Below, in pieces: positions 6,854-22,823 of a DNA stretch of 22,823 nucleotides (position 1 is the stretch's first letter; each line of letters opens with the position of its first letter). The translations under genes were made by a program, and so were the position numbers. Source of the DNA: a virus. Where the stretch lies: positions 1 to 22,823 of the IMG/VR virus record IMGVR_UViG_3300005253_000205; one strand, written 5' to 3'. The notes below the pieces were generated by a model, which had not been told where the DNA came from, searched no databases, and worked only from the letters and a program-made list of their open reading frames with translations.

Positions 6854-7105
6854 TTAATCTTGTACGCTATATTGGCCGGATATACTTAGAAAGGAGTGAC
6901 CACCAGCGCTAGCTATCTGTGCATAAATCTGGCCTCCGTCACTCCAAAACGAAGGGCGCGCACCAGGATGTTGGCCCTTTAGATTTTTCAGAAACGAAGC
7001 CCAATCCTCAGAACTCACACGGCGCTTCGCATCAGATTTAGTGATTCGGCGGCGTACGCCAGCTTCTAAAATTAGATCTGGTAAAAGTGAACGTAATATG
7101 ATCAC
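6854..7105 (-). CDS. Unknown 83-residue protein with a possible capsid-targeting leader
   Basis: Begins with GTG at 7105, one base after the stop of the upstream KOW-like gene; there is no ATG in the frame and no clear separate ribosome site, so translation is probably coupled. The first 14 residues (MIILRSLLPDLILE) form a hydrophobic/amphipathic helix ending in I-L-E before A15, which fits the (L/I)-X-E cleavage rule of T4 prohead proteases. The rest is a small soluble domain: a basic patch (RRRITKSDAKRR), then FLKNLKGQHPGARPSFW and a Gly/Ser-rich end (ASAGGHSFLSISGQY). I do not recognise the family. A terminator follows directly. Seen: the leader pattern and context. Inferred: packaging into the head as an internal protein. 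Confidence 0.6.
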   Translation of the reverse strand: MIILRSLLPDLILEAGVRRRITKSDAKRRVSSEDWASFLKNLKGQHPGARPSFWSDGGQIYAQIASAGGHSFLSISGQYSVQD

Positions 7106-7106
7106 T

Positions 7107-7331
7107 TTAATTTCTGACTATTACTTTAGACCGATTAATGTTGATTGTTGCACCTTGTGCAAGTCTAACTCGCACGCTTGCAGCTGCCGTCCACAATACC
7201 TCACCAGGTCCATGCGGCGTCTCAACTTTATCGCCTCTCTTCGGCTTCGACTCGTTCAGTTTGATTCCACTCTCCTTCAGGACGCGTCGAACCTCTTCTC
7301 GAACGATTTGTTTTACTTCTCGCTCTCGCAT
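7107..7331 (-). CDS. Small KOW/SH3-like barrel protein, nested start inside the bS21 gene
   Basis: 74 residues. Its ATG at 7331 has an excellent AAGGAG site 8 bases upstream, and both lie inside the 3' part of the bS21 gene in another frame, giving an overlap of 104 bases. Residues 1-22 (MREREVKQIVREEV, RRVLKESG) are a charged amphipathic helix ending in L-K-E. Residues 31-72 (RGDKVETPHGPGEVLW, then VRVRLAQG and INRSKVIV) have the strand and glycine pattern of a small KOW/SH3-like barrel (GDxVxTxxGxGxV...V.V.L). A similar pattern occurs in the 325-residue protein at 13071-14048. KOW-type barrels bind nucleic acids or proteins; the partner is unknown. Being translated from within a ribosomal-protein gene may tie the amounts of the two proteins together. 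Confidence 0.75.
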   Translation of the reverse strand: MREREVKQIVREEVRRVLKESGIKLNESKPKRGDKVETPHGPGEVLWTAAASVRVRLAQGATININRSKVIVRN

Positions 7332-7515
7332 TTGCTTCTCTCCTTCTACGTTTCATCGCCTCTTGTTGTTTCAGCTTGCGCTTGATAGATGGCTTAACGT
7401 AATATTCGTGTTTTCTCAGATCTTCGAGTATACCTGCTCGCTTAACTCGTTTCTTAAACTCCACCAGCGCTTGACCAAACGCTGCTTCACCGTCTCCTCT
7501 CACATTAACCTGCAT
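7228..7515 (-). CDS. rpsU: Phage-encoded ribosomal protein bS21
   Basis: 95 residues from an ATG with an AGAGGG site 5 bases upstream. Residues 1-60 match bS21 along their length: a short strand (MQVNVRGDGE), then FGQALVEFKKRVKRAGIL, LRKHEYYVKPSIKRK, and a basic helix (QQEAMKRRRREA). E. coli bS21 is 71 residues; the extra C-terminal part (about 61-95, Arg/Ser/Glu-rich, ending VEAEERR) overlaps the next gene in another frame. bS21 sits on the small subunit next to the 3' end of 16S rRNA and helps initiation. Phage copies of bS21 are known from aquatic phages and are thought to replace host bS21 and favour phage messages; that role is inferred here. It lies in the accessory block after two small membrane proteins and is transcribed with structural genes, which suggests mid or late expression. 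Confidence 0.88.
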   Translation of the reverse strand: MQVNVRGDGEAAFGQALVEFKKRVKRAGILEDLRKHEYYVKPSIKRKLKQQEAMKRRRREANARARSKTNRSRRGSTRPEGEWNQTERVEAEERR

Positions 7516-7538
7516 AAAAACCCTCTTTCTATAAATAA

Positions 7539-7862
7539 TTATCTTTCAATTCCTAATTCCGAACACTTTTCAATTAGTCCTTGCCGCTGAAGATTCTCTT
7601 TTGGATTCTCGATACATTCACCCCTGACTACTGCCTCAAGCAAAATTTGCTGAGCTTCCATATGCCGATCGATGTCCGTTAGAGTATCATCTATAATGAC
7701 ATGCTCAACTACATGCTCCTCTTGGTATTCTGCCATTACAGCACCAGGCCCTGTAACTGAAAATCCAAAGGCCGTTGCAACAATCACCACTCCTACCGAA
7801 CCGCCTGCAATTGCGGCAGGCCATTTAAAAAATGCTAACACTGCGGCTCCATCTAGCGCCAT
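7539..7862 (-). CDS. Single-pass membrane protein, unknown
   Basis: 107 residues. Its ATG overlaps the stop of the upstream membrane-protein gene by one base (TAATG), with GAGGAG about 8 bases before, so translation is coupled. One clear membrane segment lies at residues 15-36 (PAAIAGGSVGVVIVATAFGF). The rest is an acidic soluble domain (EYQEEHVVEHVIIDDTLTD, residues 45-63), with two cysteines further on (in GECIENP and EKCSELG). I do not recognise the family. Sharing a coupled unit with a two-segment membrane protein could hint at lysis or membrane remodelling (holin or accessory), but nothing in the sequence proves that. Confidence 0.65.
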   Translation of the reverse strand: MALDGAAVLAFFKWPAAIAGGSVGVVIVATAFGFSVTGPGAVMAEYQEEHVVEHVIIDDTLTDIDRHMEAQQILLEAVVRGECIENPKENLQRQGLIEKCSELGIER

Positions 7863-8203
7863 TATCCCATCTCCTCTTCACCTGCCACGCCCTCTTCTAA
7901 AGTCGGTATAGGTTTTGAATGTCCATTGCGAATGCGATCTGCTTCCGCACGTTCTTTTGGTGACCACGAAGTCTTACGCTTATTGTGGTGCTGCCAAACG
8001 TCCAGGCCGGCCATTCCGGCCAAAAAAATCAACCATTCCCACACTGGAACCCATGTAGATGTCCAGTAATGGATGGCGGTTCCTAACACAATACCCAATG
8101 TCATTAGGATACGAATATTTGTAGTTGGTGCGGTTGCTATAAGGGAATATACTTTATCTACTATACCATTAACACCGTTACGTACACCTTTAACAATATC
8201 CAT
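7862..8203 (-). CDS. Two-segment membrane protein, holin-like in form
   Basis: 113 residues. The start overlaps the previous stop by one base (TAATG). Two hydrophobic segments are visible at about residues 30-46 (NIRILMTLGIVLGTAIH) and 52-70 (VPVWEWLIFLAGMAGLDVW), separated by a short WTSTW turn. They are followed by a charged tail (HHNKRKTSW, then KERAEADRIRNG). Size, two close membrane segments and a charged C terminus are the layout of many small holins. However, no endolysin is seen in the window, and the surrounding genes look structural. I call it a membrane protein that could be a holin, with low certainty about function. Confidence 0.65.
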   Translation of the reverse strand: MDIVKGVRNGVNGIVDKVYSLIATAPTTNIRILMTLGIVLGTAIHYWTSTWVPVWEWLIFLAGMAGLDVWQHHNKRKTSWSPKERAEADRIRNGHSKPIPTLEEGVAGEEEMG

Positions 8204-9345
8204 TACTTATGCTTCTGACGAATCTTCTTACGATTCTTTGCTGCTTGACGTTTCTTTGAGCCCCACTTGCGTCGGCCCTTATGCTTCTTTGGGTACCCTT
8301 CATTTTTACTTATTCTTTTCAAGTTACGAATCTCTTTTGCTCTAACTCTTTCTGCGGCCGGGGTGAGTTGAGTTTTGTCACTAGAGAATCGTTGTGCCCA
8401 TTTATCTGCGACTCCTTTTCTATCACTACCATGGGATTGAGGTCCACTTCCGGGACCACCCTCTGCTCTCACCTGCATCATTTCAGAAATTCTACTAAAT
8501 ACTTGTCTAGCTTCATCTACATTTTTGACGTTAAGTCTGCGAAGTATTTCTAATGCTTGGTCATGCGTAAAACCCTGCTGCCCACGCGAAATGGAATGTG
8601 GAGTCCGAAGAGCCTTACGTGCTCTAAACTCAGTTTCTTCACCCTTCTCTTCCAAACCTTTATCTGGAAGAATGCGATCCATAACAGAATCAACAATAGT
8701 CTCAACCGTTTCGTCCTCTTCTTCATCATCGTCACCATTAAAATCAAAACCACCATAACCGCCGTCATCTAACATTCCGCCTTGTTCATCCTCTTCTTCA
8801 TCATCACCCGGCAGCGCTCCGCCCATTCCCTGTGCCTGCCCACCCCCAATGTCGCCAGTCGGCATTGCATCTTGTAGTGGCGACATCTCAAAATATCGAC
8901 TCAACACATTACCCATATCATCATAGAGAGCGGTAGACCGTTGCTGCATCATGTCCATTTCTTGAGCCAGTTTGACGAATGAACCTGCGTGCTTCTTCAA
9001 CTCACTCATATTTCTCTTAACTGTATGTCCGTCAAACCAGTCACCTGCTTCTTGCATGACCGTTGCTTCTGCCATCTCAGCGATGCCAGCAATCCGCTTT
9101 GCGACTTCCATAAAGGTGCCAGTTCTCTTGAGAGCTTCACCCAAACGGGAAAAGTCTGCGATGACTGCAACAGGATTCAATGCGGTCTGAGCTTGTTGTG
9201 AATCTCCACCCCTACTGAAATCTTCAATATCATTAGACTTGACGGCATCAGTAGCACTCTGGACTTTTCGGGAGTATCTATTCGCCCCCTTTCCATCCAT
9301 CGGATTTTGTGGTGGTCTACGTTCGTTGTAATTTGGTCCAGGCAT
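8203..9345 (-). CDS. Acidic/basic head-region protein with an E-GGPGSGP motif
   Basis: 380 residues, ATG with GGAG 7 bases upstream. Order of parts: an N-terminal polar region with NPMDGKGANRYSRK; a helical region (about 60-155, ALNPVAVIADFSRLGEALK, later KKHAGSFVKLAQEM); a Gly/Met-rich linker; a strongly acidic stretch (179-214, DDEEEDEQ and DDDEEEDE); a helical part (215-290); the motif RAE-GGPGSGP at 293-302; and a very basic end (336-380, KKHKGRRKWGSKKRQ). I do not recognise a named family. Acidic and basic blocks in one chain, together with its place between the protease and scaffold genes, suggest a minor core or DNA-associated head protein. The same GGPGSGP motif, always preceded by Glu, occurs in the two genes upstream. 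Confidence 0.7.
   Translation of the reverse strand: MPGPNYNERRPPQNPMDGKGANRYSRKVQSATDAVKSNDIEDFSRGGDSQQAQTALNPVAVIADFSRLGEALKRTGTFMEVAKRIAGIAEMAEATVMQEAGDWFDGHTVKRNMSELKKHAGSFVKLAQEMDMMQQRSTALYDDMGNVLSRYFEMSPLQDAMPTGDIGGGQAQGMGGALPGDDEEEDEQGGMLDDGGYGGFDFNGDDDEEEDETVETIVDSVMDRILPDKGLEEKGEETEFRARKALRTPHSISRGQQGFTHDQALEILRRLNVKNVDEARQVFSRISEMMQVRAEGGPGSGPQSHGSDRKGVADKWAQRFSSDKTQLTPAAERVRAKEIRNLKRISKNEGYPKKHKGRRKWGSKKRQAAKNRKKIRQKHK
8441..8463. repeat. GGPGSGP-coding dispersed repeat, copy 1
   Basis: GGTCCACTTCCGGGACCACCCTC on the plus strand encodes E-GGPGSGP on the minus strand. Close copies lie at 9532-9554 and 10460-10483 in two other genes. Similarity at the DNA level suggests shared ancestry of the linker rather than chance. 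Confidence 0.7.
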
Positions 9346-9357
9346 TTATTGTCTCCG

Positions 9358-10026
9358 TTATTTAGTTGCCCATCTTGCTGCACTTTGTCTACTTATAAAG
9401 TGACTCACTTTTCCTTGTCCATTCTTTGCTGCCCATGGGCGGTCTCCCCACTTACTATCCTTCCACACATCACGCTTTTGTCGTTTTGCATCACCACCCT
9501 TATGCTGTTCGCCGCGCGGTAATCTACCACTAGGGCCACTTCCAGGCCCACCCTCTACCACGCCCTCTGTTGCGGTACTAACTCTGTCCTCAAAACCATC
9601 CCTACTTTCACCCTTACGCATTTTAATACCATGCTTAGCGGCAAGCTTGTCTAGTTTCGATGCGCGTTCCCCTTCAGCTGCTGGGTCATAAGCTTCTTTT
9701 CGTACCAATCGTCTTTCCACTAAAACTTCTCGTACCATTTTTCGAACATATTCACGAACTTTTTGGATTCCTTCATTGCGACCTTTAGATTTTCTATCTT
9801 CCGGGTAATCATCATATGCATCTCTATAACGAGCAACTCCACCAACACGTTGAGAGGGCGGAACATCATGTTTGGATGTTCTTACCCAATTCTTATCAGC
9901 GGCTTTTCCTTTTGGAACATTGGCCTCAGTCTTGCCCTTTGCAAAGTTTCCTGATACATAGGAGGCTGGTCCACCCTTATGTGTATAGCCTGCAAATTTA
10001 ATTGCTGCTGTGTGTATAGTTTGCAA
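9358..10026 (-). CDS. Out-of-frame continuation of the repeat protein (rearranged or frameshifted)
   Basis: 222 residues if read from a TTG at 10026. This frame is +1 relative to the upstream 370-residue gene and overlaps its 3' end by 29 bases. Its first residues (AAIKFAGYTHKGGPASYVSGNFAKGKTE, residues 7-34) match the end of the repeat module of the upstream protein, so it begins in the middle of a module with no convincing ribosome site. Later parts are an amphipathic helix (VREYVRKMVREVLVE, 90-104), a basic region, V-V-E-GGPGSGP at 156-165, and a final short module (VWKDSKWGDRPWAAK, then GKVSHFISRQSAARWA) that mirrors module 1 of the upstream protein. It could be a separate gene with a rare start, the tail of a protein broken by a frameshift, a product of +1 frameshifting, or an assembly error. 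The reading frame itself is clearly coding. Confidence 0.6.
   Translation of the reverse strand: MQTIHTAAIKFAGYTHKGGPASYVSGNFAKGKTEANVPKGKAADKNWVRTSKHDVPPSQRVGGVARYRDAYDDYPEDRKSKGRNEGIQKVREYVRKMVREVLVERRLVRKEAYDPAAEGERASKLDKLAAKHGIKMRKGESRDGFEDRVSTATEGVVEGGPGSGPSGRLPRGEQHKGGDAKRQKRDVWKDSKWGDRPWAAKNGQGKVSHFISRQSAARWATK
9532..9554. repeat. GGPGSGP-coding dispersed repeat, copy 2
   Basis: AGGGCCACTTCCAGGCCCACCCTC-like plus-strand segment encoding V-V-E-GGPGSGP on the minus strand. It is nearly identical to the copy at 10460-10483. Confidence 0.7.
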
Positions 10027-11110
10027 ATCGTACTGCCATTCCTCTATCTGGAAAATAGTCTACTTGTCCACTTTTTGCTCTTGCGCCCCATCCCGGATTC
10101 TTTAAGCGATTGTTAGGAGGCGATTGCCAATAACTTCCTTTTGAGTGGATTCTCCATTCCCAACTTGAAGCGTCATATCCTTTTGGTGGTCTGCCTTTCT
10201 TTCTCTGAATACTTGTTTCGTCTTTATCCTCATTCATATGTCTGCCCTCATTGCGACTCTCTCCAAACGCCTTTCTGTCTACAGCCATATCCAAATCACT
10301 TCGCATTGCCTGAAGCCTTCCCAATCCTTGTGTATTATTTTGCTTATATGCCCTAGCCATTTGCTGGTCAACCATATCTTGCATCTTCCTTAATTGACCG
10401 AGAGATTTCTTAGCTAACTTATCAACTGCGCGTTTTTTAGAAGGTAGATTTTTTCTAGTAGGGCCACTTCCAGGACCACCCTCAGTTTTGCCTTTAGCAA
10501 AGTTTCCTCGCACATATGAACCCGGCTTAGTATTTGGATTTGCCCAATCTGCAAACTGCATTGCCTTTGATTTATCTGGAAAGTAATCCACTTCTCCAGT
10601 TTTTGCTCGTGCACCCCAACCCGGAACTTTAAGACCAGTTCCACTACTAGGGCGTGACTGCCAATAGCTTCCCTTTGAGTGAATTCGCCAATCCCAAGAT
10701 GGTTGGTCATACCCGCGGGGAGCTTTACCTTTACCCCTCTGCCGCATGGTTTCGTCCTTTGCTTCGTGCATTCGTCCCATAGTTTTATACCCCGCATATT
10801 TTACTGCATCTTGTTTTGTATTAAAATATGATATTTTCCCTGTGCGTACATGTTTGGCTGCCCAAGGTTTATCTTCGCGCGTCTTATCCTTCCACACAGA
10901 GCCTTTCATTTCCTTTGCATCAGAAGTAGAATCTTCCGTTATTTTCTTTGGAAGTCCCTTATGTTTCGTTGAAGCAAAATCTTTTGCATCCTTCTTCTTT
11001 ATTGATTTTGCTGTTTTGGCAACTTCAGGACTGGCTGCTTTACCACCCTTCTTTTGAGCGGAATGTACCATTCCCATAAATCGTTGCTGAGCTACTGATT
11101 TTGCCGGCAT
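9998..11110 (-). CDS. DUF3008-like domain fused to repeated W/Y/F-rich modules
   Basis: 370 residues; ATG with GAGGA upstream, two bases after the protease stop. Residues 1-56 (KSVAQQRFMGMVHSAQKK, then ASPEVAKTAKSIKKKDAKDF and STKHKGLP) match the small DUF3008 family, whose function is unknown. Three copies of a module then follow. Copy 1 (72-108) is VWKDKTREDKPWAAK with ISYFNTKQDAVKYAGY. Copies 2 (127-190) and 3 (305-366) share YDxxSWxWRIHSKGSYWQS, GWGARAKxGxVDYFPD and a final FA. Copy 2 is followed by SYVRGNFAKGKTE and GGPGSGP (211-217). A helical spacer (220-285) separates copies 2 and 3. Each module looks like a short beta sheet plus a helix ending in Phe-Ala. The protein is rich in Lys and Gly, so a DNA-contacting or packaged head protein is plausible. 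It ends mid-module at a stop, and the next frame carries on the repeat. Confidence 0.75.
   Translation of the reverse strand: MPAKSVAQQRFMGMVHSAQKKGGKAASPEVAKTAKSIKKKDAKDFASTKHKGLPKKITEDSTSDAKEMKGSVWKDKTREDKPWAAKHVRTGKISYFNTKQDAVKYAGYKTMGRMHEAKDETMRQRGKGKAPRGYDQPSWDWRIHSKGSYWQSRPSSGTGLKVPGWGARAKTGEVDYFPDKSKAMQFADWANPNTKPGSYVRGNFAKGKTEGGPGSGPTRKNLPSKKRAVDKLAKKSLGQLRKMQDMVDQQMARAYKQNNTQGLGRLQAMRSDLDMAVDRKAFGESRNEGRHMNEDKDETSIQRKKGRPPKGYDASSWEWRIHSKGSYWQSPPNNRLKNPGWGARAKSGQVDYFPDRGMAVRFANYTHSSN
10460..10483. repeat. GGPGSGP-coding dispersed repeat, copy 3
   Basis: AGGGCCACTTCCAGGACCAC followed by CCTC on the plus strand. The similarity extends into the flanking FAKGKTE-coding bases, which recur near 9925-9955. 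Confidence 0.7.
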
Positions 11111-11111
11111 C

Positions 11112-11708
11112 TTATTTCCTCGTCACTTCGCTCATAAAATCATATACAAGACTGTTGACCCGGCACCAGGCGCCACACTTAGCTCCAGGCAAAACCGACT
11201 CGTTAATGAATGCTCCCTCTGTTGAAGGATTTGAGACGACATCGAAGCATATCAAAGAAAAATCCTCTTGAACCTCAACGGTCTCATCATCCAGTTCCTT
11301 AATTGAACCAAGACCACGACTAGAAATTCCCAACTTAATATTATTCTTCAACAGTTCCTTGAGAATGTTACCCGATGGGGTGCCTAAAACTTCTATGTTG
11401 CCCATCAAATTTTCACCATTGAACCAAAGCTCAGTAAGATTATGAGATACATTCTTAAGGTTGACAACTGGGCTTTCTGGATGATCCAGTTCGCCAAGCG
11501 CTCGTCGTTCTGTAATGAACTGCTTGTATCTCTCGGCCTCACGCATCAGAATTGGCATAGGATAAATTCGGCCATTCTGGTTCTTTTGGTTCGCCGTTTG
11601 GAGAACCACGTTCTTAAGAATAAGCGGGCCGCCTCTACCTAACGCCTCGGTAATCATTTGGCGGTCGTAGGTCAAATATGTGAAATCTGTTAGTATCTGT
11701 TCAGTCAT
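11112..11708 (-). CDS. Prohead core protease, T4 gp21-like
   Basis: 198 residues, close to T4 gp21 (about 212). The start has AGAGGA upstream. Catalytic-type residues of this herpes-assemblin-like serine protease family are visible: H76 in GELDHPESP, a serine at 129/130 in KLGISSRGLGS, and D156 in CFDVVSNPSTEGAF. QNGRIYP near residues 44-50 is also typical of the family. The enzyme is built into the prohead, is activated after assembly, and cuts scaffold, capsid and internal proteins after (L/I)-X-E before DNA enters. The classical T4 order 20-(67-68)-21-22-23 is kept only loosely: about 4.8 kb of accessory genes separate this gene from the scaffold gene. Confidence 0.92.
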   Translation of the reverse strand: MTEQILTDFTYLTYDRQMITEALGRGGPLILKNVVLQTANQKNQNGRIYPMPILMREAERYKQFITERRALGELDHPESPVVNLKNVSHNLTELWFNGENLMGNIEVLGTPSGNILKELLKNNIKLGISSRGLGSIKELDDETVEVQEDFSLICFDVVSNPSTEGAFINESVLPGAKCGAWCRVNSLVYDFMSEVTRK

Positions 11709-11719
11709 AGTTAATCCTC

Positions 11720-13066
11720 TTATGGGCGACTCATTGATGCGAAGGTTCTTAGTGGTATTCCACTCGGAGATACACCAACGCCTGGATCTGCCGGTGCTCT
11801 TGCATCTATTACGATACTCTGAGTATTGATGACGTTGACTTCATCACCGAATACCAAGTCAACACTCTGCGTGATTCTAGAGTCTACTATAGAAACACTC
11901 TGAGTCGCTGAGCCTGCTGCTGCGGTTGTTACTGATCCAGTTATCTCTACAGGCTGTGCGTCAATTACGACAGATCTGGTTACTGCTGTTGGTTCTGCCA
12001 CAACTTCTACTGATCCAGTAATATTAGCGGTTCCGACAATTTCAAACGATCCTGTTACATTCACAGGCTGTGCATCAATTGTGACTGATCCAGTGATGGT
12101 TCCATCAACCGTGACAGACCTAGTTACTGCCACTGGTTCTGCTACAACTTCAACCGATCCAGTGATGTTGGTGGTTCCAACAATCTCAGTAACCGAACCG
12201 ATTGATCCAGTCATTGCCACAACTTCAACTGATCCAGTTACGCTGATAGGCTGAGCATCTACACGCACCGATGCTGTGTTTTCAATCACGACGGATGCTG
12301 TGTTTTCAATCACTACTGTTCCCGAAGTCAACGGTGCTGCATCAACCGTGACAGACCTAGTTACTGCTGTTGGTTCTGCTACAACCTCAAATGATCCAGT
12401 GAGTGCATTTACAATCTGAACTGAACCGGTCACATTGATAGGTTGCGTTGCTGCGTCAATTCCAACAGACCTAGTTACTGCCAATGGTTCTGCAACCACT
12501 TCAACCGATCCAGTGATGTTTCCGTCAATCGTAACTGACCTAGTTACTGCCAATGGTTCTGCAACCACTTCAACCGATCCTGTTACAGTAATAGGTTGCG
12601 TTGCTGCGTCAATTCCAACAGATCTGGTTACTGCTGTTGGTTCTGCGACAACTGCAACGGATCCTGTTACAACCGTTTCATCAGCCGCATTCACTCCAGG
12701 CGCAGTGCGTCCTACAAGTTGGTAACTTTCCACTGCTGTAGCAGGCGTTCCAGTTAATACTCTAAACCCATCCACTGCAGGAATACGGTCAAGAACAATT
12801 GCCTCATCAGGTCCTACCGCCATAGCAGATCCAGTTTCCGAGGTTGCATCTACCCAACCAGCTCTACCTGGAATCGTTAGATTCCTAAAGTACGGCGAGC
12901 CAACACCCAAATCCGGAGACCCCTGCAAAGTTGCTTCATCACCTTCAATTGAGTTCGATGCGTATAAAGTAATATCCTTCGCGGACTCTAACGAACTGCC
13001 AGAAACTACGCTGCTAGACGTGCTCCCTACTTGAATGTCTAATTGGAATGGTCCTATCAACGCCAT
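11720..13066 (-). CDS. Long TGSV-repeat beta-rich protein (possible head fibre or decoration)
   Basis: 448 residues; ATG with AGAGGA. An N-terminal domain of about 130 residues (MALIGPFQLDIQVGS, DITLYASNS, FRNLTIPGRAGWVDA) is followed by a repeat region (about 132-415). I count twelve TGS-V/I/F steps and six copies of VAEPxAVTRSV, alternating with short segments such as IDAATQPI and IVGTANI. The regular 10-12-residue spacing with alternating Val/Ile suggests one beta strand per step, as in a beta solenoid or trimeric fibre shaft. The C-terminal 35 residues (RAPADPGVGVSPSGIPLRTF) are non-repetitive. Composition (Thr, Ser, Val, Ala, acidic; few Lys) differs sharply from the Lys-rich proteins around it. 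Its place right before the protease gene argues for a head-associated surface protein; tail fibre is the alternative. No lectin or enzyme motif is seen. Confidence 0.7.
   Translation of the reverse strand: MALIGPFQLDIQVGSTSSSVVSGSSLESAKDITLYASNSIEGDEATLQGSPDLGVGSPYFRNLTIPGRAGWVDATSETGSAMAVGPDEAIVLDRIPAVDGFRVLTGTPATAVESYQLVGRTAPGVNAADETVVTGSVAVVAEPTAVTRSVGIDAATQPITVTGSVEVVAEPLAVTRSVTIDGNITGSVEVVAEPLAVTRSVGIDAATQPINVTGSVQIVNALTGSFEVVAEPTAVTRSVTVDAAPLTSGTVVIENTASVVIENTASVRVDAQPISVTGSVEVVAMTGSIGSVTEIVGTTNITGSVEVVAEPVAVTRSVTVDGTITGSVTIDAQPVNVTGSFEIVGTANITGSVEVVAEPTAVTRSVVIDAQPVEITGSVTTAAAGSATQSVSIVDSRITQSVDLVFGDEVNVINTQSIVIDARAPADPGVGVSPSGIPLRTFASMSRP
11940..12673. repeat. Degenerate in-gene repeats of the TGSV protein
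   Basis: Plus-strand blocks such as CTAGTTACTGCCAATGGTTC recur almost exactly (near 12471 and 12540), as does GGTTGCGTTGCTGCGTCAAT (near 12441 and 12594). Copies differ in the codons between blocks. High DNA identity between non-adjacent copies makes the region prone to recombination and length change. Confidence 0.8.
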
Positions 13067-13070
13067 TTTG

Positions 13071-14048
13071 TTATCCTCTCATGTTTCGAATCGTTTGTGA
13101 GATTCGGTGCATTCGTGATTCAATCTTCATTAGTGCATTGTTGGTTCTCTGCCACAATCCACTATTAGGAACTCCCATTTCTTTCTTGAGTCGGGAGCTT
13201 CGTCTCACAACCTTTTCCATTTCCTTGAGCTGCTTGTTAATTTCGGAGATTACATTACCAATCTTCATTCGTGGCGTCTGAGTCTCGTCATTGCGCCATG
13301 CGTAGTATGGATCACCACCTTCAGTATATATTCCAGCTTCAGGATGTTTTCCAGTTGCCTTCTTAATTTTATTCGTCCAGTATTTAATTCTCTTATCCTT
13401 ATCTTTATAGTCTGAATTCCCTGACTTGACTTGGCGCCAATAATCTAGATTACTTTGCATTTCTGCAGACGACATTTTGTCCTCATTCACTTTCTTTTTC
13501 TTGCTAGACACAGGTTCCTTTGTAGAAAATGCGTATGGTGTTCCGAATCCACCAACTGCACCTGTTCCAGTCATTTCATCTATTTCTTGCTCAACTATTT
13601 CTCGAACTCTTTCCTTCAATCTTTTCAGTTTGCCAACTGGTATCGAACGACTGTTCTTAGGTTCGTCATCCCATCTGACACGTGCAAACCGGCCGGTCAA
13701 TGCGCCAGGACCACCGGTGGCAGATACACCCATAAATTCTGGCTTCTCTATAACAGTTCCTTTCTGACGAGATGAACCCTTACCCTGCACACGGTCACCT
13801 TTTTTAAGGAACATAGCTTCTCTGATTCCCTTAGACTCAACAAACCCTTTCAATGTTTGAACAAGTTCTCGTGCACCTCTTCCTCTCTCCCTAACCTCTT
13901 CCCACGCCAACGTCCATTGTCCATTATCAAAAACATCTACATCTGTTCTCTTGTCTCTGGAAACCCACTCATCTACATCTTCATGACTTAGCCGAATAGT
14001 AAATTTCAATCTCTGTAGAATGCGAGCAATATCTTTTGGAGTTATCAT
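13071..14048 (-). CDS. Conserved head-region protein with KOW-like segment
   Basis: 325 residues; start overlaps the previous stop by one base (TAATG). Parts: an N-terminal helical domain (1-75, with QWTLAWEEVRERGRGAREL); a KOW-like barrel pattern (80-145, FLKKGDRVQGKG, KGTVIE, FARVRWDDEP, SIPVGKLKRL); a charged helix (VREIVEQEIDEM, 148-159); the phrase TGTGAVGGFGTPYAFS (160-175); a Lys-rich linker; the phrase YTEGGDPYYAWRNDE; and a basic C-terminal coil (EMEKVVRRSSRLKKEMG). From memory, the TGxGAVxGFxTPxAF phrase recurs in structural-region proteins of aquatic T4-like phages, but I know no function. Position between portal and protease suggests a prohead core component comparable to T4 gp67/gp68; that is inference. 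Confidence 0.7.
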   Translation of the reverse strand: MITPKDIARILQRLKFTIRLSHEDVDEWVSRDKRTDVDVFDNGQWTLAWEEVRERGRGARELVQTLKGFVESKGIREAMFLKKGDRVQGKGSSRQKGTVIEKPEFMGVSATGGPGALTGRFARVRWDDEPKNSRSIPVGKLKRLKERVREIVEQEIDEMTGTGAVGGFGTPYAFSTKEPVSSKKKKVNEDKMSSAEMQSNLDYWRQVKSGNSDYKDKDKRIKYWTNKIKKATGKHPEAGIYTEGGDPYYAWRNDETQTPRMKIGNVISEINKQLKEMEKVVRRSSRLKKEMGVPNSGLWQRTNNALMKIESRMHRISQTIRNMRG

Positions 14049-14914: not shown

Positions 14915-15007
14915 AGATGACTCCATTTTGGCATACCGGCTAATTTGATAAGTCTTTACCGTATTATTACATGCCTACTAATATGTATAAACCAAATCTA
15001 CAATACC

Positions 15008-16867: not shown

Positions 16868-16884
16868 ATATCCCTCTTCTTATC

Positions 16885-17361
16885 TTATTGTAACCCTTGC
16901 GGAAGTAATTTTACTAACTTAATCATCTCACCTAACTTTCTAATGTGAGACCCTTCAAAATCATGTGCTGCTTGAACGAGCACCTTTATTGGAAGTTGAA
17001 CCCTAATAACTCTCATTAAATGCTTCGGATCTTTTTCCATTATGGCCAACCATCTGTGGTGACCATCCAAAATTTGATTGTCTTGCGAAACAATGAGAAC
17101 ATCGTTTTTGATTTGATCAAATTTCTGAACCATTCCCCGAACCTTTTCCTTATCAACTGCTTTCTGAATCGGTTTCAGAGCTTTTGCTGGCAACTTTGCA
17201 GCGGTGACTGCAACGTCCGAAGTCATCCCCACATTATAATCATTTCTTCCATCTGGAAGGCTGAGCGTTTGCACATATCTAATGAACTCAGGTATTTCTT
17301 CTTTGGGTATTTGTGGCAACTTATGCCGTGCAACACCATTAGAAATTTCTACAGAAGGCAT
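16885..17361 (-). CDS. ParB/Sulfiredoxin-like domain protein
   Basis: 158 residues; start overlaps the previous stop by one base (TAATG). The segment DVLIVSQDNQILDGHHRWLA (87-106) carries the ILDGHHRW signature of the ParB N-terminal/sulfiredoxin-like fold, preceded by a helical stretch (LKPIQKAVDKEKVRGMVQK). In ParB this box binds nucleotide (CTP); in other members it binds ATP or acts as a nuclease. The C-terminal part (VQLPIKVLVQAAHDFEGSHI) looks like further alpha/beta structure. There is no helix-turn-helix of full-length ParB, so plasmid-type partition is unlikely. Its place between terminase and portal suggests a role in packaging, DNA-end handling or modification of a phage or host protein; all are inference. 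Confidence 0.75.
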   Translation of the reverse strand: MPSVEISNGVARHKLPQIPKEEIPEFIRYVQTLSLPDGRNDYNVGMTSDVAVTAAKLPAKALKPIQKAVDKEKVRGMVQKFDQIKNDVLIVSQDNQILDGHHRWLAIMEKDPKHLMRVIRVQLPIKVLVQAAHDFEGSHIRKLGEMIKLVKLLPQGLQ

Positions 17362-17768
17362 TATCCCACCGTCAATGTGACATCATAGCTGCTGAGTGGT
17401 TCTTCAACAGATCCTGCTCCAGCAGCTACCATTCTTCCATATAATACATCCTCTTTGTCACGGTTGTTTACAAACTTAATTGTAAACTCAAATGTTTTGC
17501 GAACTGGAACTGATACGCTCGAGCCATCCTGTCGTGTAACTCTTTCTTCATCATACCAAGTTTTTCCCGGCGTCCAATCTAAACGAAGGAAATCAAATCT
17601 CTTAAAGATGTCCTGAACTGGCTGCCAATATTCATCACTAAACTTTCCTCTAGTAAATGTGCCGACTTTACCATGCACCCAATTGGCCGCATTGCGTTTG
17701 CTCTTTCCGTCCAATGGATTGTCAAATGTGTTGGCTTCGAAAAGTAGAACTTGTTTTAGATTAATCAT
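17361..17768 (-). CDS. Small head-region protein with T4-like capsid-targeting leader
   Basis: 135 residues from the ATG at 17768. An upstream in-frame TTG (17798) would add ten residues and overlap the terminase end, but gives a less natural leader. The first residues MINLKQVLLFE-A resemble the T4 capsid-targeting sequence of internal proteins (MKTYQEFIAE-A) in length, amphipathic form and in ending with (L/I)-X-E. The following NPLDGKSKRNAANWVHGKVG is basic. The remainder (FDFLRLDWTPGKTWYDEER, then VRKTFEFTIKFVNNRDKED) looks like a beta-rich domain. The family is not recognised. It is coupled by TAATG to the ParB-like gene. Cleavage by the gp21-like protease and packaging into the head are predicted from the leader only. 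Confidence 0.65.
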   Translation of the reverse strand: MINLKQVLLFEANTFDNPLDGKSKRNAANWVHGKVGTFTRGKFSDEYWQPVQDIFKRFDFLRLDWTPGKTWYDEERVTRQDGSSVSVPVRKTFEFTIKFVNNRDKEDVLYGRMVAAGAGSVEEPLSSYDVTLTVG

Positions 17769-17790
17769 TGTATGTCTCGTAATAAATAGG

Positions 17791-19404
17791 TTATCCAAGT
17801 AACCAACGAATATCTTCTACATCATTTGGACGATTTGGCCCACCAACAGGCATCTTGTAAGGGTCTCCAACCGGCGATTGTGGCGTGTACACGTCTTGAT
17901 ATTCTGTTCTGTGTGCGAAATTATCCAAAGCCGCTTTAGTAAGTGAGTCACTACGCTTTCTCAATTTGAGAGCAGTGTCCCTTACCCACAATCCAATAGC
18001 GAGCGCCATAGTCAAATCGTCATTGTATCCTTCCATAGCTTCTGGCCGGCTTCCCTTCCAAACGAAAACCTCTAGTTCTTCATAGGTGCGTTGGGAATGA
18101 ATAGTGACTGCGTGGTCTCTCATATATTCATCTAATTTGGAAATGATAAGCGGCCTCGTCCTAATGGACGTAGTGAAACCAGGTACTTTCTTTCTCTCGA
18201 AAAATTTACGTTTTGTTGTTTTCTGCTTTGCATGGGTCGGATCCATAAATTTCCAATCTTCTTCCATGTAGAAAAGATTCTTGTAACCACGATCAATAAC
18301 CTCTTGTAAAACTGACCATCCTATAGTGGAATTCTCAATCACTAACAACGCATCATTATATTCGGTTGCAATTGCTACAAGCATTTGTCCAAATTCTTTT
18401 GTGCCAAGCAATCCCTTGTATTCCGCTACTTGCGTGACAGATTCCAAATCTATTACATGGAAAGCAGATTTATCATTCGAATCGCCGCGCGCTACATCAG
18501 CTACTATCATAAAGGAACGGCCAGCCATCGGATATTCCCAAACCCATATATTCTTATCAAATCCTCGTTTTTCAACAGGGGCTTTTTCGAAAGTCTGTCT
18601 GTAAAACTGAATCAAGTCACCATTGATTACGGTATTACCAGATGCAATAAAGTCCGCATCATGCTCTTGTCGTGCTGCCATTTCGCCTTGGTCTTTAGTC
18701 TGCTCGTCTCTCCAATCCTGCTCTCTCTCAGGGTGAACTGACCAATCCAAGAAAATCGGATAAAAGTTATTATTCCCGAGCGACGATTCTACCCATGTCT
18801 TATGGAAGAAATTACCCATGCCGTTAGGTGTGCTAAGAATAATTCCCTTTCCACCTGTAGACAACGTAGAATATGCAGACTTCCAAATTTCCTCGGCTCC
18901 GTCGATGAATGCACCCTCATCAAGAATGAGTAAAGATAGTGCTTCGGAACGTCCTGCATCTGGGCTACTTGCAATAGCTTTGATTTGAGAACCGTTAAAA
19001 AACGACAAAGATAGTTTGTTATCTTCGGTGCAGTTACCACGTAGCCACACTGGAAGATTTTGATGCATGACACGAACCTTCGTTACTAGGTTCTTTGCCG
19101 TGTCCTGTTTCGTTGCAATAACCAGAATGTTTTGGTCATTGTGAAATAACATTAACCAAAGTGAATACCCCGCTACCAGTGTTGACAAGCCAATCTGACG
19201 AGCTTTCAACACAATGTTGAACCTATTATCTAAAAATTTACCCAGCGTTTCCTCTTGAAAGTCATATAGATTGAATGGAATTTTTCCCCGAATCGGGTGC
19301 TGAATTATACAATACTTCTTTAAGAAGTGCGCAGAGTCGAGAGCACACCTCTTATATTCCTTCTTAATGATGTCTCTTAACTGTGTAGCTTGAGACTGAG
19401 CCAT
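17791..19404 (-). CDS. Terminase large subunit, T4 gp17-like
   Basis: 537 residues (T4 gp17 is 610); ATG with GGAGG, overlapping the previous stop by one base. The ATPase domain has a Walker A-like LKARQIGLST at 66-75, Walker B LLILDE at 158-163 with the catalytic Glu, and the coupling motif ILSTPN at 189-194. The RNase H-like nuclease domain has its three acidic sites: D303 in VADVARGD, E357 in VIENST and D462/D463 in YNDDLTMA, in the order of T4 gp17 D401, E458 and D542. The protein drives DNA into the prohead through the portal and cuts the concatemer. A small subunit (gp16-like) is not identifiable in this window. The downstream neighbour is not gp18 or gp19 as in T4 but a short leader-bearing protein. 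Confidence 0.96.
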   Translation of the reverse strand: MAQSQATQLRDIIKKEYKRCALDSAHFLKKYCIIQHPIRGKIPFNLYDFQEETLGKFLDNRFNIVLKARQIGLSTLVAGYSLWLMLFHNDQNILVIATKQDTAKNLVTKVRVMHQNLPVWLRGNCTEDNKLSLSFFNGSQIKAIASSPDAGRSEALSLLILDEGAFIDGAEEIWKSAYSTLSTGGKGIILSTPNGMGNFFHKTWVESSLGNNNFYPIFLDWSVHPEREQDWRDEQTKDQGEMAARQEHDADFIASGNTVINGDLIQFYRQTFEKAPVEKRGFDKNIWVWEYPMAGRSFMIVADVARGDSNDKSAFHVIDLESVTQVAEYKGLLGTKEFGQMLVAIATEYNDALLVIENSTIGWSVLQEVIDRGYKNLFYMEEDWKFMDPTHAKQKTTKRKFFERKKVPGFTTSIRTRPLIISKLDEYMRDHAVTIHSQRTYEELEVFVWKGSRPEAMEGYNDDLTMALAIGLWVRDTALKLRKRSDSLTKAALDNFAHRTEYQDVYTPQSPVGDPYKMPVGGPNRPNDVEDIRWLLG

Positions 19405-20138
19405 TAATTTCCTCCAGCCAATGAATTATTAGCTACTGTATATAATACTACACCTACAATTGTTCCCACAATGAACGACGTTTGTCTAGATGGAAGAGGA
19501 ATAATTCCGAATAGCTTCTCTTTTGGTGGGCCCTTCGGAATGTTAATTACAATCCGTTGTAGTGAGTCCGCTCGCGCCTGTTGAAGATTGAATCCTGTTT
19601 CCCATGCCATAATTGTCGTCAGTCGGGCGGAATCACGCTTCTCAAAGTCTTTAACCTGCTGTCGGAACTCAACAATTTGCTGTGTCAGCAACGAATTTTC
19701 CTTCCTCAAACTGAAAGTCAAGCGAATCCATGGTGCTGCTACAGGATGTTCCTCCCTAACCACCGTCTCTTCATCCCTTCCTTGCGTCAATGCGACAAAA
19801 GTAGAATCGTTTGCAACTTCAATTTCCTCTGTGCGTGCCTCAAGCTCGGTAATTCGCTCACCTCGCTCTTGAACTTCAATTGTTAGTCGGTCTGCCCGTT
19901 CGTTCGCAGAATCTGCTACAGCAACTGCAACATTAGCCAACTGCTGTAGACTGTCGGCCAACTTCACTGTTACCGCTGCTTCCTCTCTAAACTCCGCAAA
20001 GTCTGTTCTCCATTTATCTAACTTGCTTTCACTGGTAAAGGAATGATATAGGCTCATTGCCAGAAAACCAGCTAGCACTACAAGAACTATCTTTGCCGTT
20101 TGATTAAAGTTTTTCCAAATCTGCGTCGTTTTGCTCAT
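19404..20138 (-). CDS. Membrane-anchored coiled-coil protein with two terminal membrane segments
   Basis: 244 residues. The gene starts inside the upstream zinc-ribbon gene (35-base overlap) and ends in a one-base overlap with terminase, so the three are probably co-translated. A membrane segment at about 17-34 (IVLVVLAGFLAMSLYHSF) is followed by a long Ala/Glu/Arg-rich helical region (40-200; LADSLQQLANVAVAVADSA, EVQERGERITELEARTEEI, LLTQQIVEFRQQVKDFEKR) with heptad character. A second hydrophobic stretch lies near the C terminus (221-237, SFIVGTIVGVVLYTVAN) after a Pro-rich GIIPLPSRQ. A membrane anchor plus a periplasmic coiled coil is the layout of inner-membrane spanins, but a C-terminal second segment is unusual for them. 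Spanin-like lysis factor is one reading; an injection or membrane scaffold protein is another. Confidence 0.7.
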   Translation of the reverse strand: MSKTTQIWKNFNQTAKIVLVVLAGFLAMSLYHSFTSESKLDKWRTDFAEFREEAAVTVKLADSLQQLANVAVAVADSANERADRLTIEVQERGERITELEARTEEIEVANDSTFVALTQGRDEETVVREEHPVAAPWIRLTFSLRKENSLLTQQIVEFRQQVKDFEKRDSARLTTIMAWETGFNLQQARADSLQRIVINIPKGPPKEKLFGIIPLPSRQTSFIVGTIVGVVLYTVANNSLAGGN

Positions 20139-20760
20139 CCACTAATTCCTGTAATCTACCTTCAAGACGGTCAATTTCTTCTTGAAGATCTTTTTTTACT
20201 TGGTTTATATCTACGTTCCATTCCTCAAATCTTCCATCTTGAAAATGGATTTGTGGTTTGGAAACTGTCCTCTGTACGTCCTTGAGTTCAACAATTGTAT
20301 CTTTGACTTTTGCAATTACGTTTGCATACAAGACTTTGCGTTGGTATGTTTGCCATGTGCCGTTTGCGCGCATTTCGGTTTCTTCTACAATCACACAGTT
20401 GTAACATTTACCTTTCTTGTTGTAGAACTTAGTATCAAGTCTGGTATTCATTATCTTTTCACAGTTCGGGCACCACCACGGCGTCTTAGCATCCTGTAGT
20501 TTAGAGATACTTTGATTGACACCATTCTTTCTTTCCCACAACTTCCCATCCACTTCCCACTTATCTCCTTCCTTGCGTTCTATCTTCTCAGAGACATACA
20601 TGCTGACTTTTAGAGCTTGATCCGTTTTGAGAACCGTACCCATTCTTTCACGAACGCCCCGAATCGCATTCATGCCCTCTTCAACTTCTAATGTTTTGCG
20701 CGCAGGAATTGCGTCTTCGATCTTCTGGTCAGGGCTATTCCAGGGCTCAAATTGATTCAT
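20104..20760 (-). CDS. Zinc-ribbon protein with C-terminal coiled coil
   Basis: 218 residues; ATG with AAAGGA upstream. Two CX2C knuckles, C97-P-N-C100 (in WWCPNC) and C119-Y-N-C122, separated by 18 residues, form a zinc ribbon. The N-terminal part (40-80) is charged and could hold a small domain (SMYVSEKIERKEGDKWE). The C-terminal part (180-218; VKKDLQEEIDRLEGRLQEL) is a clear coiled coil and overlaps the start of the next gene. I do not recognise a named family. Zinc ribbons of this form usually touch nucleic acid or RNA polymerase, so a transcription or DNA-processing role is conceivable. The gene sits two bases downstream of the homing-endonuclease gene and has its own ribosome site. Confidence 0.7.
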   Translation of the reverse strand: MNQFEPWNSPDQKIEDAIPARKTLEVEEGMNAIRGVRERMGTVLKTDQALKVSMYVSEKIERKEGDKWEVDGKLWERKNGVNQSISKLQDAKTPWWCPNCEKIMNTRLDTKFYNKKGKCYNCVIVEETEMRANGTWQTYQRKVLYANVIAKVKDTIVELKDVQRTVSKPQIHFQDGRFEEWNVDINQVKKDLQEEIDRLEGRLQELVDEQNDADLEKL

Positions 20761-20762
20761 CT

Positions 20763-21341
20763 TTATTCCTTTATCCTTATGAAATTACATCCAAGATATT
20801 CTGAGATTACTTTTTGTCTTTGAATATCTTTTACCCTAAGTTTACCGCTCCTATAATGATTCCGTTCATCATATTCGATGACAACATTTTTTTCTCTGTC
20901 ATATCCATCCACCCAATAGCCTAATTCTTTGATATGATATTCACCGCCATTTTCTGCGTGTTGGAAGTTGAATCCATGTTTCTTGCCGTATTCTTCTATT
21001 GATCTGCATGCTTTAGGATTGTATGACGGAACGTAACCATTTCTTTTCAATCGTTTAACAGCAGAAATACGCATTTTACATATAGTTTCTGCGGAGTGTT
21101 TCCTTCTTTTTCTGTTACTACTACACATTTTGCGACGCGCTTCTATTGTATGCTTCCGACCAAACATAGGATTGTCATTTCCTTTAGTTTTTGTATGGCC
21201 TTTTTCGAAACAACCAGCGGTTAGTCCTGTGTGAGAACATGACCGGCATTTAAGATTTTTAATCTGTGCTCGGCGAAGCTCTTCTTTGACCGTATAAGTC
21301 TGTTCTGCTCCACATGCAGGGCAAAATTTTATATACTTCAT
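20763..21341 (-). CDS. NUMOD3 / PD-(D/E)XK-type free-standing homing endonuclease
   Basis: 192 residues from the ATG at 21341, which has AGGAG 9 bases upstream; a GTG two codons earlier is too close to that site. Parts: an N-terminal zinc ribbon (C7/C10, C32/C35); a NUMOD3 DNA-binding motif (NDNPMFGRKHTIEARRKM, 56-73) with a second related helix (HSAETICKMRISAVKRL, 82-98); and a C-terminal Vsr/DUF559-like nuclease region (GYWVDGYD, 141-148, then VVIEYDERNHY, 153-163, and VISEYLGCNFIRI). D145 with E156/D158 are candidate catalytic acids, as in homing enzymes with an EDxHD or Vsr-like core. NUMOD3 is typical of phage homing endonucleases. Lys/Arg-rich composition, lack of an operon partner and its insertion between two unrelated genes support a mobile gene. 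The natural target may lie in a related phage lacking it. Confidence 0.85.
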   Translation of the reverse strand: MKYIKFCPACGAEQTYTVKEELRRAQIKNLKCRSCSHTGLTAGCFEKGHTKTKGNDNPMFGRKHTIEARRKMCSSNRKRRKHSAETICKMRISAVKRLKRNGYVPSYNPKACRSIEEYGKKHGFNFQHAENGGEYHIKELGYWVDGYDREKNVVIEYDERNHYRSGKLRVKDIQRQKVISEYLGCNFIRIKE

Positions 21342-21425
21342 AACCACAATCTCCTAAAATGGTGTCCCATCTAAATATACCCTACTATAACTATCATCTG
21401 GATAGAGAAGAGTCACCAAACTGAA

Positions 21426-22739
21426 TTATCGCCCTCCGAATTTGAGAACTCCAAGGATTTGGTTAATCGGCGCGAATGTACCTGTGAATTTGAAGAGTTT
21501 GCCCTTGAACATAAACACAATTCCCTCAGTTGATACAATCTTATCTAATCCAATAGATTGTAGTTTTCGAAGTTGTGCATTGACTTTGCTCATCATAGCT
21601 ACATCGGAGGTTTTGCGTAAATCAGCGACCGTCTTATCAAGTTCCTTGCGGAGAGCTTCTGCAGATCTTCCAGGAGCCACTGATAATAGTCCCCGAGCAT
21701 TCATCAGAATTTCTGCCCCTAGTTCCAAGAAAATTTTCTCAAACGGTGCAATGTTCTTCTTGAACTGGCCTTGTTTTCCACCCTTATCAAAGGTGAGCGC
21801 CCAACTAAGGAACTTATGTGCTGCGGCATCTCTGGCCGTGTTCTGAGTTACGATTTCTTTCTTCATCCGCTGTATGGGAAATGAACCTAGCTCCTGGAAC
21901 GCCCATCTCTTCAACAAACCCTGCCGAACAGTATTGGTCATTCGGTATTTGTTGCGCACAGCCTGTTTGTCGATAAACTCTTCCCACCAGCGTTGATGCC
22001 ACATCATTACAGAATCATTATCTCGCAACCCAAATTGATTCTGTAATCTGGTTATCCTACCTATGAAATGTCCCTTCCTCATAGCAAAGTTTTTGGCTTT
22101 TGGTAGACTGACTACAACCGGGCCTCCAAAACGGAATGTGTCTTGAACGTTTTGATTGATTTGCTTAAGCATACCGGCCAACATTCGGCCTGCATCTGCC
22201 CCCACGCCGATAGCATTTCCCTTCTCGTCTACTTCAATAGTGTTGTGAAATACCAAAGTTTTGTGTCCATAAGGAATGACATTCTGAGTAGCTGGGAAAA
22301 TGATTTCCATACTCATCCATTTTGAACCTTCTGCAAACACTAGATGTCTTTGTTTCACTGACAACTTTCGAATTCCATTGGATAAGTCTCCTGCAGCGAG
22401 ACCAAATGCATCAGATATTTCGCCACGGCCAGCAAACATCTGTTTGACTCCATCTACAGTCATTGCGTTAGCGCCGAAGTCTTTCAAATGTCCTTTGTTT
22501 CTGGCGAAGATGATGCCCTTGTCATCTCTCCACGATACAGAAATGTTTTGACCGTCCAACTTTTCGGTTATAGGCGATTCGACATTGAGCCTACCCTCCA
22601 ACCCCAACTCTACAATACTCTTGAGGTCACGAAATGTGAGGTCAAAATCATCGAATGGGTGTGCCATGTGTCCCGCTGCACCTCCCTCACTGAGTTGCAC
22701 TTTTCTTCGATATTCCAGAACTGCTGTTCGATTAATCAT
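21426..22739 (-). CDS. Ligase/nucleotidyltransferase-like protein with gp21-type leader
   Basis: 437 residues from the ATG at 22739, chosen for its AAGGAA ribosome site; the frame is open upstream through an ATG at 22811 to the window edge, so a longer protein cannot be excluded. ITEKLDGQNISVSW (57-70) carries a KxDG box with K60 as candidate AMP-accepting lysine. ARNKGHLKDFG (79-89) could be motif Ia, SMEIIFP (143-149) resembles motif III, and EGIVF (405-409) with KLFKFTG (414-420) resemble motifs IV and V of ATP-dependent RNA/DNA ligases. The 255 residues between motifs III and IV are far more than in simple ligases and include a Trp-rich stretch (VMMWHQRWWEEFID). The N terminus (EYRRKVQLSE-GGAAGHMAHP) contains an L-S-E site before Gly. 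Function may be ligation, capping-like transfer or a dead derivative. Confidence 0.7.
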   Translation of the reverse strand: MINRTAVLEYRRKVQLSEGGAAGHMAHPFDDFDLTFRDLKSIVELGLEGRLNVESPITEKLDGQNISVSWRDDKGIIFARNKGHLKDFGANAMTVDGVKQMFAGRGEISDAFGLAAGDLSNGIRKLSVKQRHLVFAEGSKWMSMEIIFPATQNVIPYGHKTLVFHNTIEVDEKGNAIGVGADAGRMLAGMLKQINQNVQDTFRFGGPVVVSLPKAKNFAMRKGHFIGRITRLQNQFGLRDNDSVMMWHQRWWEEFIDKQAVRNKYRMTNTVRQGLLKRWAFQELGSFPIQRMKKEIVTQNTARDAAAHKFLSWALTFDKGGKQGQFKKNIAPFEKIFLELGAEILMNARGLLSVAPGRSAEALRKELDKTVADLRKTSDVAMMSKVNAQLRKLQSIGLDKIVSTEGIVFMFKGKLFKFTGTFAPINQILGVLKFGGR

Positions 22740-22823
22740 ATCTTTTCCTTCTTTCTTTGTAGACTTTAATATTCTGAATGTGGTGACTTTTCTGCCGTTG
22801 ATAGTTGGCATACCATGGTCATC

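Follow-up and report, generated by a model that had tools for sequence, protein, structure and literature searches.

The stretch of DNA analysed here raises the question of whether the head of a T4-like phage takes up, together with the genome, a set of otherwise unrelated proteins that share a short, cleavable N-terminal leader. The window, i.e. the whole 22,823 bases of IMG/VR record IMGVR_UViG_3300005253_000205, is a fragment of an uncultivated T4-like phage and represents a T4-like head-gene cluster, in which terminase, portal, S77 protease and capsid are the recognised genes, all on the minus strand. In a preliminary description, four of its proteins (6854-7105, 7107-7331, 17361-17768 and 21426-22739, likewise on the minus strand) had been proposed to start with leaders ending in [LI]xE, a gp21-type site, and to be delivered with the genome as cargo. 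We consider it probable, from sequence comparison, that they belong to a T4-type internal-protein (ejection-protein) packaging system, which would be greatly expanded in an aquatic T4-like clade and operate partly with polyproteins. This reading is built on the recurrence of one leader and its specificity for glutamate, on conserved sites, on the presence of the protease and on module fusions.

A shared leader on unrelated proteins

A leader of ten residues, MIKLKxLLxE/ (here and below, a slash marks the presumed cut), is found on dozens of unrelated proteins of aquatic T4-like phages. Written as the pattern M-x-x-Phi-[KQR]-x-Phi-Phi-x-E, typically MIKLKDLLxE, it occurs among 642 open reading frame (ORF) families in 19.9 family-equivalents, against 0.72 ± 0.66 in shuffled sequences (approximately 28-fold), and 26 families have at least one leader-bearing member. 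Other final residues give 0.1 to 6.0 family-equivalents, leucine reaching 6.0 versus 1.7 in shuffles. An earlier, looser pattern was replaced; it matched terminases (VIQQE) and gave 12.6 with a final lysine. Forty-four leader proteins align over MIKLKxLLxE only, and since they were chosen by the pattern, the informative point is that their bodies differ. Across IMG/VR, the glutamate form was found in at least 120 stretches, with at least 126 ORFs of at least 40 residues and at least 90 distinct bodies, versus 14 stretches and 10 ORFs for the aspartate form and 81 stretches and 36 ORFs for the lysine form. Judged by these counts, the leader depends on its final glutamate.

The same layout is seen in T4, where ipII and ipIII start with MKTYQEFIAE/A. 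In a scan of phage genomes, which tests specificity only, the pattern singles out two among the 232 ORFs called in positions 1-150000 of T4, exactly ipII and ipIII, and no called ORF of lambda (0/71), T7 (0/43) or part of N4 (0/51). In the Microcystis phage isolate Mel-JY01, N-terminal [LI]xE is present in 14 of 40 cases in the first 40 kb, i.e. the head region (null 6.9), and in 35 of 202 in the remainder, where there is no excess (null approximately 32).

Presumed cleavage sites in the window and their conservation

All five sites named at the outset, i.e. those of the four proteins and of the capsid protein, are present where they had been placed. In the gp23-like major capsid protein (3160..4836, minus strand; phrog_138, E-value 2e-72), the site IDE/STTTN at residue 64 (P1 codon 4645-4647) indeed lies where T4 gp23 is cut, the T4 record having LTE/A at residue 65; among distinct sequences, 11 of 12 have [LI]xE and one has VTE. 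The presumed cutting enzyme, a gp21-like S77 prohead protease, is encoded in the same cluster (11112..11708, minus strand; PF03420, E-value 4e-25; phrog_207, E-value 2e-48), as had been recognised.

The protein at 17361..17768, a candidate for leader-tagged cargo, strictly matches the pattern with its leader MINLKQVLLFE/ and is expected to be cut at LFE/ANTFD (P1 codon 17736-17738), where its four distinct relatives (44-95% identity) have LFE, LFE, LKE and LNE. The small protein at 7107..7331 has a 20-residue leader ending in LKE/SGIKL (P1 codon 7272-7274), with LKE, LKE and LRE in three of three relatives, and the leader of its neighbour at 6854..7105 ends in ILE/AGVRR (P1 codon 7064-7066), with IDE/A in the sole relative. 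In all four named proteins, including the ligase-like one described below, the relatives retain the glutamate-ended site with a variable middle residue, and this combination of a free middle residue and two conserved outer ones fits what a protease site would show. The leaders had also been described as short amphipathic helices, and in the one structure model on which this was checked, that of 17361-17768 (predicted local distance difference test (pLDDT) 79.8), a helix is predicted at residues 4-11 with low confidence; a structural search with this model gave no significant match (best E-value 0.009).

Counting alone is less telling, because the [LI]xE motif by itself is a weak discriminator and homologues decide. 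As expected in the preliminary description, the motif is more frequent at N-termini than in shuffled controls: the last residue of an [LI]xE falls within residues 8-25 in 10 of the 26 window proteins, compared with 3.2 ± 1.6 after shuffling of the first 40 residues (p 0.0005) and 4.1 after shuffling of whole proteins (p 0.004), and wider residue ranges give a weaker excess (p 0.0025 to 0.05). As proof, however, such counts were rejected as too weak: over 187 ORF clusters, N-terminal [LI]xE amounts to 51.6 against 36.2 expected from the control (z 3.9), but control residues 41-80 likewise show an excess in the 157 sufficiently long clusters (z 3.3). Within 8 residues of 860 dereplicated internal alignment starts, [LI].E has a frequency of 2.9%, versus 1.6% farther away, with its peak at the border; since E.[LI] rises as well (2.5% versus 1.3%), this test is supportive only. 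A separate ORF list, in which starts were poorly chosen, was used solely for picking families.

Fused ORFs as probable precursors and a glutamate-to-start-codon switch

The fourth protein, 21426-22739, had been called ligase-like, a label that the motifs support and with which the predicted fold agrees, and had been treated as a complete protein, which it probably is not: no stop codon interrupts its frame before the window edge, and in L003, a record 95% identical to the window, the corresponding part is the C-terminal module of a 906-residue ORF that begins with a cytidylyltransferase-like domain. On the minus strand, we distinguish an RNA-ligase-like nucleotidyltransferase module (21426..22685) with the predicted mature N-terminus GGAAGHM, a leader or junction peptide MINRTAVLEYRRKVQLSE ending in LSE/ (22686..22739) and, from the ORF and the comparison with L003, the end of an SH3-like module in an upstream open frame that is cut by the window edge (22740..22823). 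The site itself reads LSE/GGAAG (P1 codon 22686-22688). The ATG at 22739, upstream of which a Shine-Dalgarno-like AAGGAGG is visible by eye, could be an internal start.

KxDG, EG and K-x-TG, which we take to be ligase motifs I, IV and V, are invariant in 14 of 14 ligase modules (K42-x-D44-G45, E387-G388, K399). The structure model has a pLDDT of 87, residues 1-8 being below 50 and shown as disordered, and the 37 top rows of the structural search are all ligases, RNA and tRNA ligases matching best, albeit with middling Z scores (8.7 for Naegleria RNA ligase, 8.1 for T4 Rnl1) and a Foldseek E-value of 0.02; against PDB chain sequences, no match was better than an E-value of 0.39. The module has the same nucleotidyltransferase motifs as T4 Rnl1, fungal tRNA ligase and Naegleria RNA ligase, which are its best structural matches, but it differs from them in that approximately 185 of its 419 residues are aligned and that it is predicted to be packaged.

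Among the best 80 of 315 relatives in IMG/VR, the module starts with GGA[AY]GHMAHPFDD in every case, preceded by glutamate in 63 and methionine in 17, and in 54 of these 80 the open frame extends over more than 300 further codons upstream. As far as open frames can tell, what had been called a ligase-like protein is in most cases a module at the C-terminal end of a long fused ORF. In 36 non-redundant relatives, position -1 is glutamate in 32 and methionine in 4, leucine or isoleucine occupies position -3 in 34, and position -2 varies freely.

The 17 relatives with methionine (L010, L023, L036, L042, L065 and others) have, at the exact module border of the fused ORF, an in-frame ATG with a Shine-Dalgarno sequence in place of LxE. 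Such a sequence precedes the ATG in all 13 distinct methionine types (at least 6 bases long in 8 of them), whereas 49 of 55 distinct glutamate types lack one at the module border. Translation can thus begin exactly where the glutamate is missing, and cutting in the one type and initiation in the other would yield nearly identical module N-termini. As the methionine types retain the open fused frame upstream, both forms are possibly made. This exchange of glutamate for a start codon offers a natural control, and indeed a test, of polyprotein maturation.

Several other modules show the same motif at their borders. Of 27 distinct fused ORFs, 23 start with a leader ending in [LI]xE (typically MNKLVEEIIKPILE/), and in fused ORFs and related single genes taken together, [LI]xE stands directly before the module in 15 of 15 non-redundant members of the TPxAF family, 22 of 23 of the DDGP family, 5 of 5 of the VSAK family and 3 of 3 Zeta kinases. 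The TPxAF family includes a head-region protein of the window (13071..14048, minus strand) with the family site IDE/MTGTGAVGGFGTPYAF at 13575-13577, the residue after IDE being methionine (IDE/M). A tryptophan-rich peptide, F[ST]KxWWKxxLLxE, recurs ahead of several unrelated modules. In relatives, a single ORF can contain a cytidylyltransferase, a Zeta kinase and the ligase-like module, the window holding only the C-terminal part of such an ORF. The Zeta kinase and the SH3-like module are found in fused ORFs and also as single genes of their own with a leader.

Association with the S77 protease

If the leaders are removed by the gp21-like protease, leader and protease should be found together. 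Among the matches listed, 27 of 45 records with the glutamate leader have S77, compared with 10 of 43 controls (p 0.0006), the control contigs being the longer ones, and 25 of 40 relative fragments have it as well. Two long contigs, G063 (207 kb, L191) and G056 (126 kb, L177), carry MIKLK leaders (three in L177) and gave no S77 match; either these records are incomplete or another protease is used.

Probable T4-type packaging and competing explanations

Internal proteins of T4 reach the core by means of a capsid targeting sequence, which gp21 cleaves off, and are injected (PMC7411985, PMC12373910, PMC3012670). By analogy, cargo would be docked on the core of the prohead scaffold by an N-terminal leader of about ten residues or by a longer helix ending in [LI]xE. 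For the docking core we presume an acidic protein encoded where a gp22-like scaffold would be expected (4862..6307, minus strand), from its composition and its position next to the capsid gene, a family search having given no match above cut-off. The S77 protease would cut after [LI]xE, as expected in the capsid protein, and thereby free the mature protein within the head, from where it would enter the host along with the DNA. With cargo domains fused into long precursors, leader first and [LI]xE before many modules, one packaged chain would give several proteins. The cargo so expanded would include the RNA-ligase-like enzyme, Zeta-type kinases and, in Mel-JY01, an S-adenosylmethionine lyase. 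The core of the original proposal, leaders cut by a gp21-like protease on head-packaged cargo, is strongly supported by comparison, and the proposal as a whole in part; cleavage, packaging and injection themselves would follow from the T4 parallel.

Several observations weigh against this interpretation. For two of the four named proteins, the relatives are too few to test the site strongly, and 17361-17768 is the only window protein that matches the strict leader pattern, the other three ending in [LI]xE but failing it. This pattern had, moreover, been widened after T4 was read, which is what confines the scan of phage genomes to specificity. [LI]xE is also common inside folded proteins, e.g. 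the capsid protein and the protease, and at the ligase-module site the closest relative, L003, has VSE and L005 has MKE. Borders of SH3-like (12/24) and cytidylyltransferase modules (16/21, with [LI].K equal at 16) are unconvincing, and both were dropped as further proof. Lastly, the search for S77 was negative in 15 of the 40 fragments and 18 of the 45 leader records, two contigs as long as 126 and 207 kb being among the latter.

Some of these points would suit a different view of the fused ORFs, namely that they encode polyvalent multidomain proteins working as a whole, in which [LI]xE marks uncut helix ends or linkers and the short leaders are perhaps packaging signals. Polyvalent proteins are often packaged unprocessed (PMC5512222), and both the occurrence of [LI]xE within domains and the two weak border families agree with this. 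Nevertheless, we regard it as unlikely, given that leucine or isoleucine and glutamate are kept around a free middle residue, that the capsid site shows the identical motif and that the glutamate is swapped for a real start codon at the very same place.

The leader could also be a genuine sorting tag with another destination or another protease, be it the host envelope, the nucleoid or zincin-like peptidases of the cargo. MPTase-PolyVal and HExxH domains are indeed present in cargo and some long leader-bearing records have no detectable S77, but the association of the leader with S77, its T4-like layout and the confinement of the N-terminal excess in Mel-JY01 to the head-gene region (14/40 versus 35/202) render such a route quite improbable. 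Chance or composition, i.e. short N-termini rich in leucine, isoleucine and glutamate, might account for an excess that in the window is modest and range-dependent and that is also somewhat present at residues 41-80. It is scarcely credible, however, as a source of a family-weighted leader count that is about 28 times the mean of the shuffled sequences and stays low when the final residue is a different one, or of at least 126 ORFs with glutamate against 10 with aspartate across IMG/VR.

Candidate cargo and possible functions

Under T4-type packaging, the candidate cargo of the window would comprise the RNA-ligase-like module (21426-22685) and the proteins 17361-17768, 7107-7331 and 6854-7105, with a further putative site in 13071-14048; a role of the small proteins as regulators, as once suggested, found no support. 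Of the 44 leader proteins, two match Zeta toxin kinases (two also phrog_505, polynucleotide kinase), one a cupin, one a ParB-like nuclease and one an S-adenosylmethionine lyase family. Among 87 distinct leader proteins from the IMG/VR matches listed, two match Zeta toxin, one phage lysozyme and one MPTase-PolyVal (E-value 5e-4), and most tagged cargo has no known family. In the fused ORFs scanned, no zincin, ART or ArdC domain of the polyvalent type scored above cut-off, and PADLOC found nothing in the 44 leader proteins; NCBIfam matches to effector names (E-value approximately 3e-4) were taken as chance.

The lyase match is WWT39336 of Mel-JY01 (L135, 7405-8691, corresponding to 52405-53691 of Mel-JY01), annotated only as a hypothetical protein, with the leader MQFKQYILGE/ and a PF23780 score of 40 bits (cut-off 28); it is a candidate for a virion-delivered anti-restriction enzyme in an isolate. 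Another head-cluster protein, WWT39312 of Mel-JY01 (L111, 22429-23595), has the leader MYEYVEYILE/ and by eye resembles an ADP-ribosyltransferase. A search of the open-licence literature found no paper on Mel-JY01.

As to function, we tentatively suggest, as a possibility that we would not favour, a counter-defence and RNA-repair kit that is packaged ready-made, partly as a polyprotein cut inside the prohead, and to which Mel-JY01 adds a leader-tagged S-adenosylmethionine lyase. From the first minute on, enzymes resembling Zeta or polynucleotide kinases, RNA ligases and cytidylyltransferases might repair RNA that defence nucleases have cut, and the lyase of Mel-JY01 might starve restriction enzymes ahead of any phage gene expression. 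The RNA-repair part is speculative; it draws on the resemblance of these proteins to kinases and ligases and on the fact that phages counter tRNA cutting with RNA ligases (PMC9503650).

Relation to known systems

T4 Ip1-3 block type IV restriction enzymes (PMC7411985, PMC12373910, PMC3012670), and the few T4 head-delivered proteins have turned out to be anti-restriction factors (PMC12373910). T4 IPI-IPIII and Alt share with the present system a ten-residue, glutamate-ended leader on unrelated proteins and a gp21-family protease in the cluster; here, however, the consensus is MIKLKxLLxE, cargo families are far more numerous and include enzymes, and there are fused precursors with internal sites, which were not found in the T4 proteins examined. 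In polyvalent proteins, too, a single phage polypeptide unites many enzyme domains and presumably reaches the host along with the DNA (PMC5512222), and one leader-tagged protein gave a zincin-like match (MPTase-PolyVal); what differs here are the gp21-type sites at module borders and the leader at the start of the chain. In the ejection proteins of phiKZ and SPN3US, propeptides of head proteins are cut after glutamate by a gp21 relative, but SPN3US cuts at A-x-E and its propeptides often exceed 100 residues, compared with L/I-x-E and about 10-20 residues here (PMC5694885, PMC7411985).

The system had been announced as undescribed. Its kind is known from the internal proteins of T4 and their capsid targeting sequence (PMC12373910, PMC3012670), whereas neither the polyproteins nor the scale turned up in print: searches of the open-licence literature listed no publication on cargo polyproteins cut by gp21, nor any on the leader in marine T4-like phages. 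Judged by this literature, the novelty would lie in the expansion, in the consensus leader and in fused precursors that carry internal sites. For a prohead protease, the processing of a multi-enzyme polyprotein within the head would be a novel task, and the host would receive ready-made enzymes along with the viral DNA. The leader could serve as a readable tag that lists, from sequence, which genes of uncultivated T4-like phages likely have their products delivered in this way, and the at least 90 distinct tagged bodies, mostly without assigned function, form a search set for new anti-defence proteins.

Other features of the head-gene cluster

Further genes of the window lie among the head genes. 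A ribosomal protein S21 homologue (7228-7515; PF01165, E-value 1.5e-13) is situated within the cluster, and Mel-JY01 has rpsU in the corresponding neighbourhood. An Endonuclease VII-like gene (6393-6752; PF02945, E-value 2e-25) and a NUMOD3-containing one (20763-21347) are inserted among the head genes and are possible homing endonucleases. A protein of 448 residues (11720-13066), for which no family match was obtained, is built of repeats around TGSVEVVAEPxAVTRSV. Between the protease and the scaffold-like gene, three adjacent proteins (8203-9345, 9358-10026 and 9998-11110) contain EGGPGSGP, each time after x-x-E, and the latter two additionally share repeats; EGGPGSGP after x-x-E could be a second type of cut site.

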